Source of the DNA: Curtobacterium luteum
Lineage (GTDB): Bacteria; Actinomycetota; Actinomycetes; Actinomycetales; Microbacteriaceae
NCBI RefSeq assembly: GCF_001475545.1
Contig: NZ_LDQC01000048.1
Coordinates: 1-64,000, forward strand
Direction: 5' to 3'
DNA length: 64,000 bases
Shown here: in pieces, positions 3,789 through 11,507 of the stretch
Layout: the number at the start of each line of letters is the position of its first letter
How positions within the stretch are numbered: the first letter of the stretch is position 1
Notes under the pieces: model-generated
The model's input: only the letters and a program-made list of their open reading frames with translations
What the model was told of the DNA's origin: nothing
Databases searched by the model: none
Made by a program: the position numbers and the translations under genes

Positions 3789-4223
3789 TCAGCGCTGGCG
3801 GGGGCGAGCGGTGGGTCCGGTCAGGGCGACCACGAGCAGCGTCGCGAGCATCCCGACGCCCGCGAGCACGATCCCGAGGCCGAGGAGCATCCAGTACGCG
3901 CTGCCGACGACCTGCGGCTGCGTGATGGCGTCGGGCCACCACGCGTCGACGAGCGGGAACGTCGGCGGGAACGGGTCGAGCGCGAACACCACGAGACCGC
4001 CGAGCAGCATCGCGACGCCGACGCCGGCCATCGCGCCACGGGAGCGCCGGAGCATCCGGACGACCAGGGCGGTCGCCATCGCGGCGAGCCCGGCCACCGC
4101 GACGAGGAACGCCGTCACGACGACGGCCTGCGGGGCGAGCGCGAACCAGTCGAGCACCGCCACGGGCAGCAGCAGCCACCGACCCGTCCGGGCCAGGAGC
4201 GCCGGGTTCGTCCACGCCTGCAT
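3789..4223 (-). CDS. hypothetical four-helix membrane protein
   Basis: A 144-residue protein with about four predicted membrane segments (WLLLPVAVLDWFALAP, AVVVTAFLVAVAGLAAMATALVV, the GVGVAMLLGGLVVFAL region, and a C-terminal YWMLLGLGIVLAGVGMLATLLVVAL). A positively charged loop RMLRRSRG follows the second helix. I do not recognise the family. It converges on the GAF protein gene with only 6 bases between stops. The start at 4223 is supported by a TACGGT hexamer at the leaderless distance. Confidence 0.65.
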   Translation of the reverse strand: MQAWTNPALLARTGRWLLLPVAVLDWFALAPQAVVVTAFLVAVAGLAAMATALVVRMLRRSRGAMAGVGVAMLLGGLVVFALDPFPPTFPLVDAWWPDAITQPQVVGSAYWMLLGLGIVLAGVGMLATLLVVALTGPTARPRQR

Positions 4224-4230
4224 GCCGACG

Positions 4231-4236
4231 ACCGTA
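4231..4236 (-). promoter_or_regulatory. -10 element TACGGT (minus strand)
   Basis: Seven bases upstream of the ATG at 4223. Confidence 0.55.
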
Positions 4237-4265
4237 GGGCACCGGTGCTGGGCGGCGACCGGTGA

Positions 4266-4901
4266 TCAGCTGTGGCCGACCTGCACGGCTCGTCGCGCGA
4301 ACCCGATGAGGAACGGCAGGACCGAGCCTCGGAGGGACGTTCCCTGTCGGAGCAGTCCACGCACGCGGAGCACTCCTGCCGTGACGACGACCCCCTCGAT
4401 CCCGCCCTCGGCCAGCCGTGCGCGGCGTGCGTCCGCCTCGGGTGGGAACGCCGACCGCGGGACACGCACGACGACCGTGTGCAGGGTCGTGGTCGCCGTC
4501 CAGGCGCCTCGGACCCCACCACGCACGCGCTTCAGGCCCTCGACGACGAACGCGTCCGATCCGGCGGCGACGAGCAGGCGGTAGTGCATGCGCCGTCCGC
4601 CGACCGCGCTCGTCAGGATGTCCGCGAAGCCGGCGTCAACACGGGTCGGTCCGGCGGCGACGCCGGTCACGGTCCCGGCGGTGATGGTCGCCTCGTACCC
4701 GTCGCGCTTGCCGTCGAGGCGGTCGACACGGACCCGCAGGTCGTCGAGGTCGAGCAGGGCGGGGCGTCGGGAGGCGGTCGTCGTCGCCAACCGCACGATG
4801 CCGTCCCCGCCGCGTGGCCCGCGTGGCCGGACGGTCCACGGCACGTCCGGCACCGGTCCGACGGGGCCGACCATCCGCTCGTGGAAGGTGATCAGCGGCA
4901 T
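4266..4901 (-). CDS. hypothetical protein resembling the ERMxG module of GMC/hydrolase fusions
   Basis: A 211-residue soluble protein and the last gene of a coupled five-gene operon. It begins ITFHERMVGP and contains GLKRVRGG...WTATTTLHTVVV. From memory, these resemble the conserved E-x-M-x-G and DTTTLYV motifs of an unnamed domain found in large multidomain proteins that also carry a cholesterol-oxidase-like GMC domain and an alpha/beta hydrolase. Here the three modules are separate neighbouring genes, which supports the match. The function of this domain is unknown to me. Its ATG at 4901 lies inside the end of the hydrolase gene (10-base overlap). Confidence 0.6.
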   Translation of the reverse strand: MPLITFHERMVGPVGPVPDVPWTVRPRGPRGGDGIVRLATTTASRRPALLDLDDLRVRVDRLDGKRDGYEATITAGTVTGVAAGPTRVDAGFADILTSAVGGRRMHYRLLVAAGSDAFVVEGLKRVRGGVRGAWTATTTLHTVVVRVPRSAFPPEADARRARLAEGGIEGVVVTAGVLRVRGLLRQGTSLRGSVLPFLIGFARRAVQVGHS

Positions 4902-5974
4902 GCCTCGCCCTCCTCGGACGTGTCCACGGGCGAGACCCGTGCGGGGTCGTCGTGTCCGGCGACGTCGAGTGTGAACCGGACGAGTTCGCCCCGGACGGCG
5001 CTGCCGATCGGCCACGCCTCGATGTCGATGCCGTGCCGAGCGCCAGCGCACTGCACGACCCGGACGTCCGCGCCGCCACGGGGAGCGACCGTCTCGGCCC
5101 AGCGCCGGACGGCCGGGACGTCGACGTACCGGTCGTCGTCGCCCGCGAGTTCGACGAGCGTCGGCACGGCCGCGGGCACCGGAGCGGCGACGGCCACCCC
5201 GGCGTGCGCGAGCAGTCGGCCGGCGAACACCGGGTCGAGGAACGGCGACGCCGGCCGGGGCGGACAGAGGACCGGCGCACCGAGGTTGTGGGTGAGCGCC
5301 CGCAGCCTGGAGATCCCGTCGCCCCCGGCGAAGGTGCGCGGGACGATCGCGGGGGACTCGAGCGCGAGACCCCGTACCGGGCGGCCGAAGGCCGCGCGGA
5401 TCGACGGGTCCTGCACGAAGCGCGTCGCGAGCAGTCCGCCGAACGACCAGCCGGCCAGCACGAACGGCCGGTCCGGGTCCTGTTCGGTCGCGTGCACGAC
5501 GCGTGCGGCCAGGGCACCGAGGTCGTCGAAGGACCACCGGTCGATCGCTCCGGCGTCCGTCTCGCCGTGCGAGGGCAGGTCGAACGACACGACCCGGATC
5601 CCGGCGGCGCGGAGGTCGGCGAACAGCGCGGCGTGGTTGTCGAGCCGGTCCGCGTGCCCGTGCACGAAGAGCACGTCCGCGACGGGTTCGTCGGCCGGGG
5701 TGACGACGCCGACCCGGACCCGGTGCGCCCCGCCGCCGAGGTCGGGAACCCGGAGGAACCCGGTCTGCAGGCCCGTGACCGGACCCGACACCGGACGCAG
5801 CCGGAGGGTCTCGCCCGGGAGCTCCGACCGGGACGGCGACGTCGTCGCTGCCGCACTCGCGGCCAGCACGCGGTCGGTGCGCACCGTCTCGACGACGGAC
5901 GGCACGGTGCCGGCGGCGAGCGCGATCGCCGCCGCGACCACGAGCGCGACCCCCGCCGATCTGCGGGCCGTCAC
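4892..5974 (-). CDS. exported or membrane-anchored alpha/beta hydrolase
   Basis: A 360-residue serine hydrolase. The N-terminus has a hydrophobic export or anchor segment (residues about 8-24). The catalytic domain shows FVHGHADRLD (oxyanion region), the nucleophile elbow GWSFGG with Ser177, an acidic VELAGDDDRYVD segment and a late CAGARHGID with the likely catalytic His. It resembles monoacylglycerol lipase/lysophospholipase-type enzymes. Its GTG overlaps the stop of the upstream GMC gene (GTGA). Products fusing this type of hydrolase to GMC oxidoreductases are known, so it may hydrolyse a lipid ester whose alcohol is oxidised by its neighbours. The substrate is not determined. Confidence 0.85.
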   Translation of the reverse strand: MTARRSAGVALVVAAAIALAAGTVPSVVETVRTDRVLAASAAATTSPSRSELPGETLRLRPVSGPVTGLQTGFLRVPDLGGGAHRVRVGVVTPADEPVADVLFVHGHADRLDNHAALFADLRAAGIRVVSFDLPSHGETDAGAIDRWSFDDLGALAARVVHATEQDPDRPFVLAGWSFGGLLATRFVQDPSIRAAFGRPVRGLALESPAIVPRTFAGGDGISRLRALTHNLGAPVLCPPRPASPFLDPVFAGRLLAHAGVAVAAPVPAAVPTLVELAGDDDRYVDVPAVRRWAETVAPRGGADVRVVQCAGARHGIDIEAWPIGSAVRGELVRFTLDVAGHDDPARVSPVDTSEEGEACR

Positions 5975-7629
5975 CGGGTGCCTCCCGTGCGGAGCGGCGA
6001 GCCGACCAGGGTCGGCAGGTCGCGCTCGACCAGCCGCTCGACCGCCCGTTCGGCGAGCGACGCGATCGTGAGCGACGGGTTCGCGCCGGTCGACGTCGGA
6101 CAGAGCGCGCCGTCCACGACGTACAGCCCGGGGTGCACGTCACCGTCGGCCTGGAAGACCCGCCCGTCGGGGTCGCAGACCCCGTGGTCGACGTCCTCCG
6201 CCATCGCCGCACCACCGAGCGGGTGCACGGTGATCGGCGTGGCCGCAGGGACGCCCCGTTGCAGGAGGGCCCGTCGTGGGTTCCCGACGAACCGCGCGGA
6301 GGAGCCGTCGGACAGCACCCGGAGGTCGGCGAGTTGCCGGGCGTACACGGCCTGGGCGCCGGCCTCGGGCCAGACGATCCGCGGCTGGCCCCGCCCGTCG
6401 AGGACGACGCGGCCCTCCGACGAGTCCGTGCCCATCGCCAGCCACACCTGCGAGTGCTCGAGCGCGCCACAGCCCGGTGGGCAGCCTCCCGGCCGGATGT
6501 CGCACCAGACCCTGCTGTCGGCGCTCAGTGCGAACCGCAGGCCGAGGACCCGGCGGAGCGCCTCGGCGACGGGGTAGGGCAGCGCGCCGTCCTGCACGAG
6601 GTACCCGTCCGGACCGGTGCGCAGGTCGAGGGTGCTCGTGATCGTCGGCCCGATCGCGACCTCGGGCGCCGCGGCGTCACGTGCGCCGGTGCCGGAGCGG
6701 CGACCCGCTGCGTTGTACGACACGGAGAGGGAGTCGGCGTTCCCCGAGAACCGCGTCCCGAGCTGCGCGCTGGTCGCGAGCCCGGCGTCTGCGCTGCGGA
6801 GCAGGATCCCCGTCGTCCCGATCGCGCCGGCTCCGAGGACCACCACGTCCGCGTGCACCACGAAGGGCATCGGGGTCCGCCGACGACCCGACGCCGGGTG
6901 TCGCAGCCCGTGCACCTCCCAGCGTCGGCGACCGGATCCGGGGACGACCCGGGTGACCTCGGTCCGTGTCACGATCCGTGCCCCGGCCGCACGGGCCATC
7001 GGCAGGTAGCTCATCCACATCGTGGTCTTGGCACCGACCCGGCACCCGGTCACGCAGTTACCGCAGCGGGTGCAGGTCGGCTGGTGGACGCCGGCGGCGT
7101 TCGGACCGGGTTCCCCGTGCAGCTTCACTGCGATCGGCAGTCGCTCCGGCCCCCGTCCGTGCAGTCGGCCGAGGTGGGCGAGTGCCTCCGCCTTCGGGGT
7201 GTGCCGGTCCTCGACCTGCGGCCGGAGCACGGCACGCACCCGGTCGGCGTACGGGCGGAGCTCGTCGGCGTCGATGCCGCTCGGCCACTGCGCGTCGAAC
7301 ACCTCGGGTCGGGCCTCCAGCAGCACGTTCGCGTAGATGAGGGACCCGCCACCGAGGCCGTTCGCCGTCAGCCGGTCGACGTCGGCCCCGAGCTGCAGGT
7401 CGAAGAGACCGAGCGGGTTGCGACGGCTCCTGACCGCGCGGCGGACGTCGGCGAAGTCGGCCGGGAAGTCGTCCGGCAGCCACTCGCGCCCGCGCTCGAG
7501 CACGAGGACGTCGTCGGTCGCCGCGGCGACGCGGGCGGCTGCGATCGAGGCGCCGAAGCCGGAGCCGATGACCGCGACCGAGCACTCCTCGGGCAGGGCC
7601 TCCGTGGCGATGGGGCGGTACGTGGTCAC
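5971..7629 (-). CDS. GMC oxidoreductase, cholesterol-oxidase-like, with cysteine motif
   Basis: A 552-residue FAD-dependent oxidoreductase. The dinucleotide motif GSGFGA is at residues 22-27 and NGLGGGSLIYANV near 90-102. The C-terminal HPLGG contributes the active-site histidine, and VDGALCPTSTGANPSLTIAS is typical of the cholesterol-oxidase-like branch. Four cysteines at 186, 189, 192 and 196 (CTRCGNCVTGC) form a ferredoxin-like CX2CX2CX3C cluster that could hold an iron-sulfur centre or zinc. There is no signal peptide. The GTG at 7629 overlaps the previous stop (GTGA). The substrate is probably a hydrophobic alcohol, by family. Confidence 0.88.
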   Translation of the reverse strand: MTTYRPIATEALPEECSVAVIGSGFGASIAAARVAAATDDVLVLERGREWLPDDFPADFADVRRAVRSRRNPLGLFDLQLGADVDRLTANGLGGGSLIYANVLLEARPEVFDAQWPSGIDADELRPYADRVRAVLRPQVEDRHTPKAEALAHLGRLHGRGPERLPIAVKLHGEPGPNAAGVHQPTCTRCGNCVTGCRVGAKTTMWMSYLPMARAAGARIVTRTEVTRVVPGSGRRRWEVHGLRHPASGRRRTPMPFVVHADVVVLGAGAIGTTGILLRSADAGLATSAQLGTRFSGNADSLSVSYNAAGRRSGTGARDAAAPEVAIGPTITSTLDLRTGPDGYLVQDGALPYPVAEALRRVLGLRFALSADSRVWCDIRPGGCPPGCGALEHSQVWLAMGTDSSEGRVVLDGRGQPRIVWPEAGAQAVYARQLADLRVLSDGSSARFVGNPRRALLQRGVPAATPITVHPLGGAAMAEDVDHGVCDPDGRVFQADGDVHPGLYVVDGALCPTSTGANPSLTIASLAERAVERLVERDLPTLVGSPLRTGGTR

Positions 7630-9602
7630 GGCTGTCGCTCCTGTCGTGGCTCGGGTCCGTCGGCGAGCATCCGGTCCGCTGCTCGCTCGGACACGGCGAA
7701 GATCGTCATCAGGGGGAAGAGCGCCGGGATCGCCGGGAACACCGAGGCGTCGACGACCCGGAGACCGGTCGTGCCGCGTACGCGGAAGTCGCTGTCGAGC
7801 ACCGCCGCGGGGTCGCCGTCGCGGCCCATCCGAGCGGTGCAGCTGGCGTGGTGGCCCCAGGCGTCCCGCCGGATCACGGCGTCGAGCTCCTCGTCGTGCT
7901 TCGCCGACCCCGGGTACAGTTCGCGATCGGTCGCGGCGTCGCCGAACCGGAGCCGGTGCGCGGTGGCGTTGACGCGGCGGGCCTCCTCGAGCCCTTCCCG
8001 CACCGCACGGAGGTCCTGGCGCACGCCGGCGGAGTCGCCACCGTCGTCGAAGTACCGGAAGTTGATCGCCGGGGTGTCGGTCGGGTCGGCGCTCCGGAGC
8101 CGGACCGAGCCGTCCATGCTCTGCTGGTACCCGCGGATCACCGCCCAGTTGAAGTGGTTCCCGCCGCGGAGGCCGTCCTCCGCGAACCCGGGACGGTACC
8201 CGGTGAAGTTCGACGGGGCGCCGAACACGAACAGCTCCGGGTGTCCGCTGCCGTGCGGCACCTTCCGCTTGATGCCGACGAGGATGCCGTTCGAGCGGTA
8301 CAGGGCGTTCGGGTCGCCCGAGCGCCACTCGGTGAGCCCCGGGTCGCCCGGCTGCCCGTAGGTCTTGCCGTCGAGGACCGAGAACGGCCGCTCGTACTCC
8401 GTCACGACGGTCATCTCGTAGCGGTCCTGCAGGTTGCCGCCGACCCCCGGGGAGTCGACCACCACGGGGACGTCGTGCGTGCGCAGGTGGTCCGCCGGCC
8501 CGATCCCCGAGAGCATGAGGAGCTGCGGGGTGTTGAACGCGCCGGTCGCGACGACGACCTCGCGGCGCGCGGTCACCCGGACGCGTGCTCGATCCCGTGC
8601 TGCGGGGTCGAGACGACGCCGGAGCGGACTCGCACCGTACTGGTAGGGCGCGACGACGACGTCGACCCCGGTGGCACGTGGGACCCGTCCGGAGGTGTCG
8701 AACACGATCCGTTCCACGAGCGCGTCGGTCTGGACGGCGAGGCGGCCGTCGAGACCCGGGACGGCCTCGAGCAGGCGCTCCCGGGTGCCGTACCGCTTGC
8801 CGTCCCGTGACGACTGCGGGACGAGGAACGTGCCCTCGCGGAGGGCTTCCACCCCGCGGGGGTCGTTCGGGTCCAGCAGGGTCCCGCCGACGGTGCCGGC
8901 CTCGACGTCGACGTCGGACGCGGGCGGAGCGAGGTGCCCGGTCTCGACGAGCGCGGCGGTCACGATGCGGGCGAGCGTCGGGTCCTCGGTCAGGATCGCC
9001 GCCGGGGACGTCTCGATCGGCAGCCACTCCCGGACGCGGTCCTGGTAGCGCCGCATCACGAGGGCGTTCCAGCTCGGGTCGCCGGTAGCACGGCCGATGC
9101 GGTCCCAGTCGGCGGACTCGGGGGCCAGCATGAGCAGCGCGTGGTGCGCCGTGCAGCCGCCGAGGGTGGAGGCGCGCGGGTAGAGCACGCCGTCGCGCTC
9201 CGGGACGAACGCGGACCCGTGCGCGGTGGCGTCCGTGTAGTGCCGGACCCAGAAGTCCCAGCTCATCTGCGGGTCACTCGACGCGAAGAGGTGGAAGGCG
9301 GGGACGGCGTAGACGTCCGGGTCGGTCGTGGCCGGTCCGGCCTCGAGCACGAGGACGCTGTGCCCGGCCTCGGCGAGCCGCACCGCGAGCGGGACGCCGC
9401 CGGCGCCGGCACCGACCACGACGTAGTCGTACTCGGTCGCCGTCGCCAGCGCACCGGTGTCGACCGGGGGCCGGCGTGGACCGTCCGTCGGGTCGCCGAC
9501 CGGACCCGGTCGTGCGGCGAACACGGCGCCGGCCGCCGTGACCGCGGCGGCCCCGGCGAGTCCGCCAGCGATGAAGTCGCGTCGCGACGGCCGCCCGGTC
9601 AC
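7626..9602 (-). CDS. Tat-exported GMC oxidoreductase
   Basis: A 658-residue flavoenzyme of the glucose-methanol-choline family. It opens with a twin-arginine signal (PSRRDFIAGG, then an Ala-rich h-region), so it is probably folded with FAD and exported. VVVGAGAGGVPLAVRLAEAG is the FAD motif. STLGGCTAHHALLML and VATGAFNTPQLLMLSGIGP match the two GMC signatures. The active-site region reads WGHHASCTARMG instead of the common HPVGTCRMG, keeping a histidine. Protein order and overlap (GTGA at both ends) place it in the coupled five-gene operon. It is distinct in sequence from the second GMC enzyme downstream. Confidence 0.88.
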   Translation of the reverse strand: MTGRPSRRDFIAGGLAGAAAVTAAGAVFAARPGPVGDPTDGPRRPPVDTGALATATEYDYVVVGAGAGGVPLAVRLAEAGHSVLVLEAGPATTDPDVYAVPAFHLFASSDPQMSWDFWVRHYTDATAHGSAFVPERDGVLYPRASTLGGCTAHHALLMLAPESADWDRIGRATGDPSWNALVMRRYQDRVREWLPIETSPAAILTEDPTLARIVTAALVETGHLAPPASDVDVEAGTVGGTLLDPNDPRGVEALREGTFLVPQSSRDGKRYGTRERLLEAVPGLDGRLAVQTDALVERIVFDTSGRVPRATGVDVVVAPYQYGASPLRRRLDPAARDRARVRVTARREVVVATGAFNTPQLLMLSGIGPADHLRTHDVPVVVDSPGVGGNLQDRYEMTVVTEYERPFSVLDGKTYGQPGDPGLTEWRSGDPNALYRSNGILVGIKRKVPHGSGHPELFVFGAPSNFTGYRPGFAEDGLRGGNHFNWAVIRGYQQSMDGSVRLRSADPTDTPAINFRYFDDGGDSAGVRQDLRAVREGLEEARRVNATAHRLRFGDAATDRELYPGSAKHDEELDAVIRRDAWGHHASCTARMGRDGDPAAVLDSDFRVRGTTGLRVVDASVFPAIPALFPLMTIFAVSERAADRMLADGPEPRQERQP

Positions 9603-10786
9603 CGTCGGGCCCCCGCCGGGGCGAGCACCGTGGCCACGACGGCTCCGGACACGACGAGCACCCCCGCCACCGCGAGCACCGGGAGTGCGACCACCGCGCC
9701 CCACAGGGCGGGCAGCACGAGCACCGGGACCCAGGCGAGGACGGACCGACGCCGCGTGGCGGTGACGACCGAGAGCACGAGCAACCCACCGAGACCGGCC
9801 GTCGAGGCCGCGGCGGTACCGACGGCCAGTGCGAGGACGAGCTCGGCCAGCTGGAGCGAGCACAGCACGAGCACCGTGACGATGCCGCCACGGGTCCGCG
9901 CCACGACGACCACCGCGGCGCTCCCGAGGACGGCCGCAGCGGCGAGGAGGACCGAGGGCCACGGCGCGGCGGAGGTGAGCGACGACGCCACGACCGGGAC
10001 GGCCCCCGCGACCACCTGCGCGACGAGGACGACGACGGCGGTGACGCGCGTCGTCGACCAGACGGTGGACACCCCGGGGGCCCGTCCGACGACCGACCCC
10101 GCGGTGACGGCGACCGCGACCGCACCGGTCAGGACCGCGACGTCCGCACCGTCGACCGCGGCTCCGTCGTGCGTCAGGGGGTGCACGACCAGGGCGACAC
10201 CCACGGGGAGGAGCACCGTGGTGGCGACCACCACGCTCCGTGCCGCGCCGACCGTGCGGATCCACCACGAGCCGACCAGACCGGCCACGACGACGGCGAC
10301 CGGCACGACCCCGAACACGTGCGCGACGACGCCCCAGGCCAGCGTCAGCCCCTGCGCGACGACGAACTGGACGGGCGAGCGGAACCACAGGGCGATCCCG
10401 ACGTTGACCGCCACGGCCACGAGCAGCACGGCGACGAGCGCACCGCCCAGCCCGACGAGGTTCACGAGTCCGAACAGGCCGAACGTCGCCGTCGCGCCGG
10501 CCCAGCCCGCCCACGCGCGAGCGGCCGCGGTCGATCCGGACGCCGCCGCCCGTCGGCCGAGCACGAGGAACACGACCGTGAGGAGCGTCAGCACCACGGG
10601 GAGGACCCACCCGGCGAGCAGCGGGAGGGCCTCCGAGACGATCAGGACGATCCCCGTCGCGAGGACGACGGTGCCCGCGGTGAGGACGGCGAAGCGACCG
10701 CGGTCCGGTGTCGACGTGCGCGGGCGCGGGGCTGCGGCGTCCGGCAGGTGGTCGAGGGGGGCGGGGTGTCCGGTGGTGTGCGACAT
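9599..10786 (-). CDS. polytopic membrane protein heading the GMC cluster
   Basis: A 395-residue, very hydrophobic protein with roughly 11-12 membrane segments after a 30-residue cytoplasmic leader. Composition is dominated by Val, Ala, Leu and Gly, and I cannot match it to a known transporter family. It is the first gene of the minus-strand operon, and its last codon overlaps the GTG of the Tat-type GMC gene. It is divergent from the TetR-type regulator with only 49 bases between starts. A role as partner, anchor or exporter for the oxidoreductases is context-based inference. Confidence 0.7.
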   Translation of the reverse strand: MSHTTGHPAPLDHLPDAAAPRPRTSTPDRGRFAVLTAGTVVLATGIVLIVSEALPLLAGWVLPVVLTLLTVVFLVLGRRAAASGSTAAARAWAGWAGATATFGLFGLVNLVGLGGALVAVLLVAVAVNVGIALWFRSPVQFVVAQGLTLAWGVVAHVFGVVPVAVVVAGLVGSWWIRTVGAARSVVVATTVLLPVGVALVVHPLTHDGAAVDGADVAVLTGAVAVAVTAGSVVGRAPGVSTVWSTTRVTAVVVLVAQVVAGAVPVVASSLTSAAPWPSVLLAAAAVLGSAAVVVVARTRGGIVTVLVLCSLQLAELVLALAVGTAAASTAGLGGLLVLSVVTATRRRSVLAWVPVLVLPALWGAVVALPVLAVAGVLVVSGAVVATVLAPAGARR

Positions 10787-10835
10787 GACGCGATCTGTTC
10801 GGATCCGTCGCTACGATCGACTGCGGAGGTCGTGC
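10787..10835. promoter_or_regulatory. divergent promoter region with CGGATCCG dyad
   Basis: These 49 bases separate the GMC operon from its regulator. On the minus strand, ACAGAT (10793-10798) lies six bases before the ATG at 10786. On the plus strand, TACGAT (10812-10817) precedes a GGAGG ribosome site at 10825-10829. The 8-bp palindrome CGGATCCG (10800-10807) sits between the two -10 candidates, where a repressor would block both. Confidence 0.45.
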
Positions 10836-11507
10836 ATGTCACAGGACGGACCCTCCCGGCAGCGGCGGGCCGTCGCGACACGGGCGGCGATCATCGACGG
10901 CGCCGCGAGGGAGTTCGACGAACGCGGCTACGTCGGCGCGTCGATGGACGGGGTCGCCGAGCGGGCCGGGGTCACGAAGGGCGCGCTGTACTTCCACTTC
11001 GCGTCCAAGGCCGACCTCGCCGGGGCCGTCGTCGCCCGCCAGCACGAGGTGTCCCGTGCCCACGCCGAGCTCGCGTACGCCCGGGGCCGGACGCCGCTCG
11101 AGTCGATGATGTGGATGTCGCAGGGGCTCGCGGTCCAGATGACCACCGAGGTCGTCGTCAGCGCGGGCATCCGGCTCTCGACCGAGCCGGCCGGCAACGG
11201 CATCGCCCGCCAGGACCCCTACACCGACTGGATGCGCGTGACGGCCGACATCTTCCGCGAGGCCATCGCAGCCGGCGAGGTCGACGACCGCTGGGACCCG
11301 GCGCTCATCGGCCGGGTCGTCAGCCCCGCGTACACCGGGGTGCAGGCCGTCTCGGACGTCCTGTCGGGCCGAGCAGACCTGTTCGAGCGGCTGCGGGAAC
11401 TCTGGACCGTGCTCCTCGCCGCGTTCGTGACGGAGCGGACGCGGCCGGAGATCCCCCGCCTGGTCGCGATCATCGCCCCGGACGCCGAGGGACGACCGGT
11501 CCGGTGA
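10836..11507 (+). CDS. TetR-family regulator, ScbR/ArpA (gamma-butyrolactone receptor) type
   Basis: A 223-residue regulator. Residues about 12-58 form the TetR helix-turn-helix (ATRAAIIDGAAREFDERGY, then GVTKGALYFHFASKADLA). The C-terminal part looks like autoregulator receptors of the ScbR/ArpA class: VVSAGIRLSTEP, the DPYTDWM segment whose tryptophan corresponds to a ligand-pocket residue in CprB/ScbR, and the YTGVQAVSDVLSGRADLFERLRELWTVLL ending (positions 11332-11424). TetR-family membership is certain; receptor-type assignment comes from recalled family patterns. It probably represses the divergent GMC operon and itself. No butyrolactone synthase (AfsA) gene is in the window. Confidence 0.8.
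   Translation: MSQDGPSRQRRAVATRAAIIDGAAREFDERGYVGASMDGVAERAGVTKGALYFHFASKADLAGAVVARQHEVSRAHAELAYARGRTPLESMMWMSQGLAVQMTTEVVVSAGIRLSTEPAGNGIARQDPYTDWMRVTADIFREAIAAGEVDDRWDPALIGRVVSPAYTGVQAVSDVLSGRADLFERLRELWTVLLAAFVTERTRPEIPRLVAIIAPDAEGRPVR

Follow-up and report, generated by a model that had tools for sequence, protein, structure and literature searches.

Among the flavoenzymes of the GMC family, those related to choline oxidase act with a catalytic His/Asn (or His/His) pair. Other GMC domains form part of large single-chain proteins in the order GMC domain, beta-rich module, hydrolase domain, an architecture for which our searches of open-access papers gave no characterisation. A further described relative is the flavin adenine dinucleotide (FAD)-glucose dehydrogenase (FAD-GDH) of Burkholderia cepacia, in which Cys212, Cys218 and Cys222 are the ligands of a [3Fe-4S] cluster (PMC6719666). 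Here we describe a cassette of five overlapping genes, P0001 to P0005, in a 64,000-nucleotide stretch of Curtobacterium luteum DNA (contig NZ_LDQC01000048.1, hereafter the window). As judged by homology, this operon is a split form of the fused architecture, in which the hydrolase is of another kind and the set is widened by a further GMC enzyme and a membrane protein.

Our preferred reading, which we hold to be somewhat better than evenly balanced, is that the five genes form one co-inherited cassette acting at the cell envelope on a hydrophobic alcohol held in ester linkage, probably by cleaving the ester and oxidising the alcohol by means of two dissimilar flavin enzymes. Its direct support comes from gene order and overlaps, co-occurrence, family assignments, the homology of P0005 to the module of the fused proteins, and the alignment of the P0003 cysteines.

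Gene layout and co-inheritance

The open reading frame (ORF) list of the window contains five minus-strand ORFs lying head to tail from 10786 to 4266. P0001 (10786-9599, minus strand) encodes a polytopic membrane protein of 395 amino acids. It is followed on the same strand by P0002 (9602-7626), a GMC flavoenzyme of 658 residues with a twin-arginine translocation (Tat)-like leader; P0003 (7629-5971), a cholesterol-oxidase-like GMC flavoenzyme of 552 residues with a predicted iron-sulphur site; P0004 (5974-4892), an alpha/beta hydrolase of 360 residues with an N-terminal hydrophobic segment for export or anchoring; and P0005 (4901-4266), a predicted beta-barrel module of 211 residues. Scans against Pfam and NCBIfam place P0002 and P0003 among the GMC oxidoreductases and P0004 among the alpha/beta hydrolases, and give nothing over cut-off for P0001 and P0005. 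Successive genes overlap by 4, 4, 4 and 10 bases (GTGA at the first three junctions), and both the coordinates and the junction letters agree with the sequence-only reading, a set of predictions made earlier from this DNA, in which all five genes were coupled by overlapping junctions. As that reading proposed, such coupling might yield the five products in fixed ratio.

The same five genes, in the same order, are found at all eight loci that have a close P0003, counted after removing duplicates and spread over Curtobacterium, Plantibacter and Frondihabitans. At 31 of the 32 junctions of these loci the adjoining genes share 4 or 10 bases, the downstream start codon overlapping the stop of the gene before it, so the set is beyond chance, and the search for gene order in relatives that had been proposed earlier bears it out. 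The one exception is P0001/P0002 of a Frondihabitans locus (L013), where the GTGA letters stand but the reading frame of P0002 is broken. At 8241-8300 of this locus P0002 is split over two frames, by either a sequencing error or a true break in the gene, and this copy was excluded from the P0002 alignment (A4) and from the mirror-tree analysis. Because the identity of P0001 and P0005 to the window drops to 40-44% in the other genera, we infer that the gene overlaps are maintained by selection.

The cassette is rare and is inherited as a set. A scan of named genomes with the P0003 pattern gave five loci (three in Curtobacterium, one in Plantibacter flavus and one in Frondihabitans). Within Curtobacterium, P0003 orthologues above 960 bits occur in 5 of 66 genomes, our own included, with G586 as an additional locus; the cut is our choice, the next genome scoring 264 bits, and some GMC match is present in 62 of the 66. 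The sample of the family added G150, from the same genus as the Frondihabitans locus. P0001 and P0002 (E <= 1e-120) are each confined to the same four of the 249 sampled family genomes. P0005 is found in these same four and, as a weak and broken match with one stop inside (E 4e-4), in G113, which we did not count as a relative. Among the candidates listed for 245 other sampled genomes of the phylum (at most four scored per genome), none matched P0002 at E <= 1e-60. Mirror-tree comparison showed that the pairwise identities of the five proteins correlate with one another, with r = 0.92-0.96 (21 or 28 pairs). In these samples the idea of a joint system withstands the refuting conditions set for it earlier. 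It is strengthened by the co-occurrence of P0001, P0002 and P0005 and by these correlations, and weakened by the Curtobacterium genome G593, where a distant P0003-like GMC (264 bits) stands alone, the other four genes being absent from the stretch examined.

A predicted iron-sulphur site in P0003

The best solved relatives of P0003 are the GMC cholesterol oxidases (PDB 1coy, 1b4v); it scores 162 bits against the cholesterol oxidase family NF058674, whose curated cut-off is 850. In the alignment with 1coy, His469 falls in an HPLGG stretch and Asn517 in an NP stretch. The two correspond to the catalytic His and Asn of cholesterol oxidase, and both are kept in the 22 of 22 proteins that cover them (with L048 taken from its second ORF).

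P0003 carries the motif CX2CX2CX3C at residues 186-196 (7042-7074, minus strand) and has no hydrophobic leader visible by eye, as the sequence-only reading had said of the second GMC enzyme. All seven operon rows of the alignment have the motif unchanged, and it is present in G586 as well. C186, C192 and C196 align without gaps with Cys212, Cys218 and Cys222 of B. cepacia FAD-GDH (PDB 6a2u), the three ligands of its cluster, while C189 falls on an Asn. The same three cysteines are kept in all 22 rows covering the motif, which comprise the 8 operon copies and 14 others, including the other GMC of the same C. luteum genome (L017); the second ORF of L048 does not reach this region. Eight of the 22 rows have Val, Ser, Thr or Gly in place of C189, so a three-cysteine pattern is preferred and a fixed four-cysteine ferredoxin site was rejected. 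Since the cysteines align with the three [3Fe-4S] ligands, P0003 is probably an iron-sulphur flavin dehydrogenase that hands electrons on.

Several points weigh against this assignment. P0003 is remote overall from the catalytic subunit of B. cepacia FAD-GDH (E 1.4e-6 for the whole protein) and the alignment is weak when the cysteine segment is taken alone (E 0.025), although the segment alignment agrees with the whole-protein match. Moreover, 1coy, which is a better match than FAD-GDH, aligns no cysteines with the motif, and the Pfam and NCBIfam scans name neither an FAD-GDH-type small subunit nor a cytochrome, such as the multihaem subunit of that enzyme, among the five genes or the flanking genes P0006 and P0007. 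Three further cysteines, C376, C383 and C387, are invariant in the operon rows and are lacking in four fused relatives (those of Azospirillum, Rhizobium and Leptospira, and L029). Taken with the wider conservation of the motif, the alignment suggests that a branch of the cholesterol-oxidase-like GMC enzymes, annotated merely as oxidoreductase or hydrolase in the records examined, may carry an iron-sulphur cluster and act as dehydrogenases.

The module P0005 and the fused architecture

Plasmid sequences matching P0003 (106 records, 6 of them examined in context) include proteins of 1120-1143 amino acids annotated as 'alpha/beta fold hydrolase' in Azospirillum, Rhizobium and Leptospira. In three of these fused proteins, WP_149201188.1 (Azospirillum oryzae), WP_063474201.1 (Rhizobium leguminosarum) and WP_002741297.1 (Leptospira borgpetersenii), the GMC part is 34-36% identical to P0003 over 90-91% of the length of P0003, which thus has the GMC domain with cysteine motif that belongs to the fused architecture. 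The beta-rich middle module, with its TTTL-type motif, has its counterpart in P0005. With filters off, the P0005 profile (A1) hits the segment that separates the GMC domain from the hydrolase domain, as well as a 197-residue hypothetical protein of Pseudonocardia, at 10.7-30.6 bits, and comparison of P0005 with the middle module by hhalign gives a probability of 97.4. Plain tblastn of P0005 against the plasmids returned no match, its relatives there being found by profile only.

Profiles of P0005 (A1) and of the module (A8) were then run with default filters over the 4839 ORFs of all the DNA fetched. A1 finds the P0005 copies together with many GMC-linked modules, and A8 finds P0005 at five of the eight loci (L010-L014, E 0.0013 or better). 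The sole other hit, L024 (E 2.7e-4), was not counted as a P0005 relative. In a sample of 246 genomes of the phylum, A8 detects 12 places in 10 genomes, and at seven of them, which are also the seven strongest, a P0003-like GMC either shares its ORF with the module or immediately precedes it. At two places (L079 and L080, in genomes of 9.7-9.9 Mb from the same class) a weak relative of the module occurs in an ORF of about 700 residues adjoined by a fused-type hydrolase, with no P0003-like GMC in the flank.

Another parallel to the operon is found on the Pseudonocardia plasmid pBCI1-2, where a GMC gene (WP_060577099.1) is followed at once by the module gene (the 197-residue WP_060577100.1) and adjoined by a hydrolase gene (WP_060577098.1). 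Unlike that of the operon, this hydrolase is divergent and of the fused-protein type, being one of the four rows in the fused-hydrolase profile, and the second motif cysteine of the GMC is replaced by Gly.

The correspondence between operon and fused proteins is incomplete, and several observations count against it. Each profile misses part of the set: A1 did not recover the modules of L026, L027 and L029, nor A8 the P0005 of the window, L009 and L044, and 5 of the 12 module places have no P0003-like GMC within the flanks examined. The gene order GMC-hydrolase-module of the operon differs from the domain order GMC-module-hydrolase. P0004 and the fused hydrolase domain appear related only by fold (hhalign 29.2; best hmmsearch score 4.9 bits), so that the operon, which has its hydrolase as a separate gene where the fused proteins have a C-terminal domain in the same chain, repeats the combination of GMC, module and hydrolase with another hydrolase. 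Likewise, the fused proteins are one chain, whereas the operon has separate genes and a hydrolase with an export segment, and the genes listed around the fused proteins, in neighbour tables that are incomplete, include no second GMC.

Even so, P0003 and P0005 have counterparts within a single large chain of other bacteria, and P0004 would supply the kind of activity found in the last part of that chain. The earlier statement that no system with this set had been described holds in that our searches of open-access papers gave no description of the five genes; it needs qualifying in that GMC, module and hydrolase recur together, sometimes as one protein. In the proteins scanned, neither Pfam nor NCBIfam has a name for the module itself. 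Its link to an enzyme partner now makes the role of an unnamed domain testable, and because the operon divides naturally what is elsewhere a large fused enzyme, the parts can be removed one at a time.

The AlphaFold2 model of P0005 is a confident barrel (predicted local distance difference test score, pLDDT, 90.1). Foldseek gave no match to this model at E <= 0.001, and the VIA matches were avidin-like and other barrels with Z 7.3-9.5 among the rows listed (most 7.3-8.2), which the tool rates as middling; no sequence relative with a solved structure was found below E 0.44. We did not adopt a known fold for P0005 on these matches, and since they are only middling, ligand binding by the barrel is a guess, which also tells against giving it a part in substrate handling.

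The hydrolase P0004

An N-terminal hydrophobic stretch is visible by eye in P0004, in line with the export segment described earlier. Its nucleophile-elbow sequence G-W-S177-F-G lies within a GWSFGG stretch that, like H314, is invariant in seven rows. The same seven rows also keep C309 and the penultimate residue C359, the latter being retained even in L012 and L014, where the overlap with the P0005 start does not force it. A C309-C359 disulphide in an exported P0004 is a fair inference from this conservation.

The second GMC enzyme, P0002

P0002 belongs to a different branch of the family, its best solved relatives being choline oxidase/dehydrogenase (PDB 2jbv, 3nne). For the Tat signal proposed earlier, P0002 has a candidate in a twin-arginine-like leader (SRRDFIAGG). 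The two arginines are invariant in 6 of 6 rows; the match to Pfam TAT_signal is weak (16.4 bits, cut-off 22.7). The His through which choline oxidase links FAD (His99) has H153 as its counterpart in the alignment; H584-H585 is kept, and H585 aligns with the catalytic His. Unlike choline oxidase, P0002 has a phenylalanine, F629, in place of the catalytic Asn, and so lacks the His/Asn (or His/His) pair. Phe629 occurs in all seven operon rows, and because three plasmid relatives (Sinorhizobium and Calothrix; picked from 907 matching records) also have Phe, this looks like a trait of the P0002 subfamily. The scores against BetA (TIGR01810; 171.2 bits, cut-off 732.1) and MftG (139.2 bits, cut-off 387.45) place P0002 in neither of these families.

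The plasmid relatives of P0002 adjoin cytochrome c genes or a patatin-like phospholipase gene, neighbours that would fit a dehydrogenase and lipid chemistry. On a Calothrix plasmid (L070, 1-6668) a P0002-like GMC gene lies within 7 kb of DNA together with genes for a peroxidase and a patatin-like phospholipase, a set suggestive of oxidised-lipid chemistry.

The membrane protein P0001

P0001 was described earlier as a 12-helix protein. That it is a polytopic membrane protein stands; the helix count is only approximate (12-14), because the AlphaFold2 model, which is of low confidence (mean pLDDT 62.4), shows about 14 helical segments. This poor model has no Foldseek match at E <= 0.001, and no named family was found for P0001 in Pfam or NCBIfam. 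In particular, none of its 7 members matches a Pfam family, so nothing points to the membership in an unrelated known family that would have spoken against a joint system. Its lack of annotation and its structural model weigh against the preferred reading. Residues 198-215 hold two His and two Asp, invariant amid an otherwise hydrophobic protein; they form the polar stretch H202-P-x-T-H206 and D212-G-x-D215, the same in 7 rows, which is a possible cofactor or substrate site.

Proposed function

Mechanistically, P0004, located outside the cell or anchored in the membrane, would cleave an acyl ester. The freed alcohol would be oxidised by P0003, with FAD and an iron-sulphur cluster, acting as a dehydrogenase whose cluster relays electrons to a carrier, so that oxygen is not their sole acceptor. 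The P0005 barrel may be the working partner of P0003, since elsewhere the module lies in the same chain or is encoded by the next gene, and would present or receive the greasy substrate. P0002, exported by the Tat route, would carry out a second and different flavin step outside the membrane, while P0001 would serve as anchor for the complex or transfer substrate or electrons through the membrane. For the substrate we guess, from family membership, at a sterol-, terpenoid- or wax-like alcohol. The chemistry of the ester/alcohol pathway put forward in the sequence-only reading fits the enzyme families; its division into two compartments is conjectural, as the leaderless P0003 and P0005 could be co-exported.

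Such co-export is the basis of another explanation, a respiratory oxidation complex in which P0002 and P0003 form a heteromer that is exported by Tat on the leader of P0002 alone and delivers electrons to the membrane, at P0001 or to quinone. The predicted iron-sulphur site of a leaderless P0003 beside a leader-bearing operon partner suits this arrangement, and the catalytic GMC subunit of FAD-GDH is believed to be exported with the help of a small hitchhiker subunit that has a leader (PMC6719666). P0002, however, is a full enzyme and not a small carrier, and no haem subunit is named among the five genes. The fused relatives inspected are also leaderless by eye, so that P0003 may simply be cytosolic. 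On balance we regard a respiratory complex as improbable. Equally improbable is its most specific form, in which P0003, once folded around FAD and an iron-sulphur cluster in the cytoplasm, rides the Tat leader of P0002, takes the alcohol released by P0004 via the P0005 barrel, and uses its cluster to deliver electrons to the membrane at P0001; if true, an exported complex of two GMC enzymes would represent a novel type of respiratory dehydrogenase for lipid alcohols in Gram-positive bacteria.

Genomic site and neighbouring genes

The cassette lies between two native genes. On one side, P0007 (3789-4223, minus strand) encodes a small membrane protein; on the other, P0006 (10836-11507, plus strand) is divergent and encodes an ScbR-family (gamma-butyrolactone-type) receptor, separated from the operon start by a spacer of 49 bp (10787-10835). 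In G596, whose receptor is 96% identical, the receptor and P0007 genes are 99 bp apart with nothing between them (L064, 10196-10294), the counterpart of the spacers at 4224-4265 and 10787-10835 of the window. The operon therefore occupies the receptor-P0007 spacer in a clean pair of occupied and empty sites. No direct or inverted repeat of at least 10 bases was found inside either edge (integrase and transposase genes were not searched for), and 4196-4300 and 10741-10850 share no word of at least 7 bases. In G586 the operon lies elsewhere and the receptor-P0007 site is empty, while in G594 it adjoins the same small membrane protein gene.

Patchy presence and an occupied or empty site in close relatives suit niche genes, and the carrier genera are often isolated from plants. 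The cassette might thus serve detoxification on plant surfaces, oxidising alcohols or esters of the plant that are toxic to the bacterium (terpenoid or phenolic esters) and so conferring tolerance, with no nutritional role. We consider this quite unlikely: the scans name no efflux pump among the five genes or P0006 and P0007, and two GMC enzymes of different subfamilies point to a pathway and not to a single detoxifying step.

ScbR/ArpA-type receptors are known chiefly from Streptomyces signalling. P0006 scores 187.8 bits against NF041196 (cut-off 150), which identifies it as an ScbR-family autoregulator-binding receptor, and its relatives in the PDB are 6srn, 6wp7 (AvaR1) and 1ui5 (CprB). Its orthologues (at least 66% identity) occur in 43 of the 66 Curtobacterium genomes, 40 of which are without the operon; the two are found together in three (our own genome, G000, with G600 and G586), and G594 and G560, which carry the operon, have no receptor match at E <= 1e-30. 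The receptor adjoins the operon at two of the eight loci, the window and G600, in both of which the operon lies between the receptor and P0007 genes. With the receptor in 43 and the operon in 5 of 66 genomes, and the two adjacent at only 2 of 8 loci, membership of the receptor in the cassette was rejected.

The receptor bears on one more explanation, a biosynthetic or tailoring cassette whose product would be a lipid or terpenoid (a signal or an envelope lipid), with P0001 as exporter and control by the ScbR-type receptor in the window. GMC enzymes also tailor natural products, the divergent receptor gene stands 49 bp from the operon, and a P0002 relative adjoins the patatin-like phospholipase gene, near a peroxidase gene, on the Calothrix plasmid. 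The conserved set nevertheless includes no synthase, transferase or acyl-activating gene, and most receptor-bearing genomes do without the operon. A butyrolactone synthase of the AfsA type has no match in the C. luteum genome either, a weak test, as none of 14 control genomes matched. We therefore think a biosynthetic role unlikely. Receptor control of the operon in the window itself is possible, and the 49-bp spacer is presumed to hold or overlap the operon control region.

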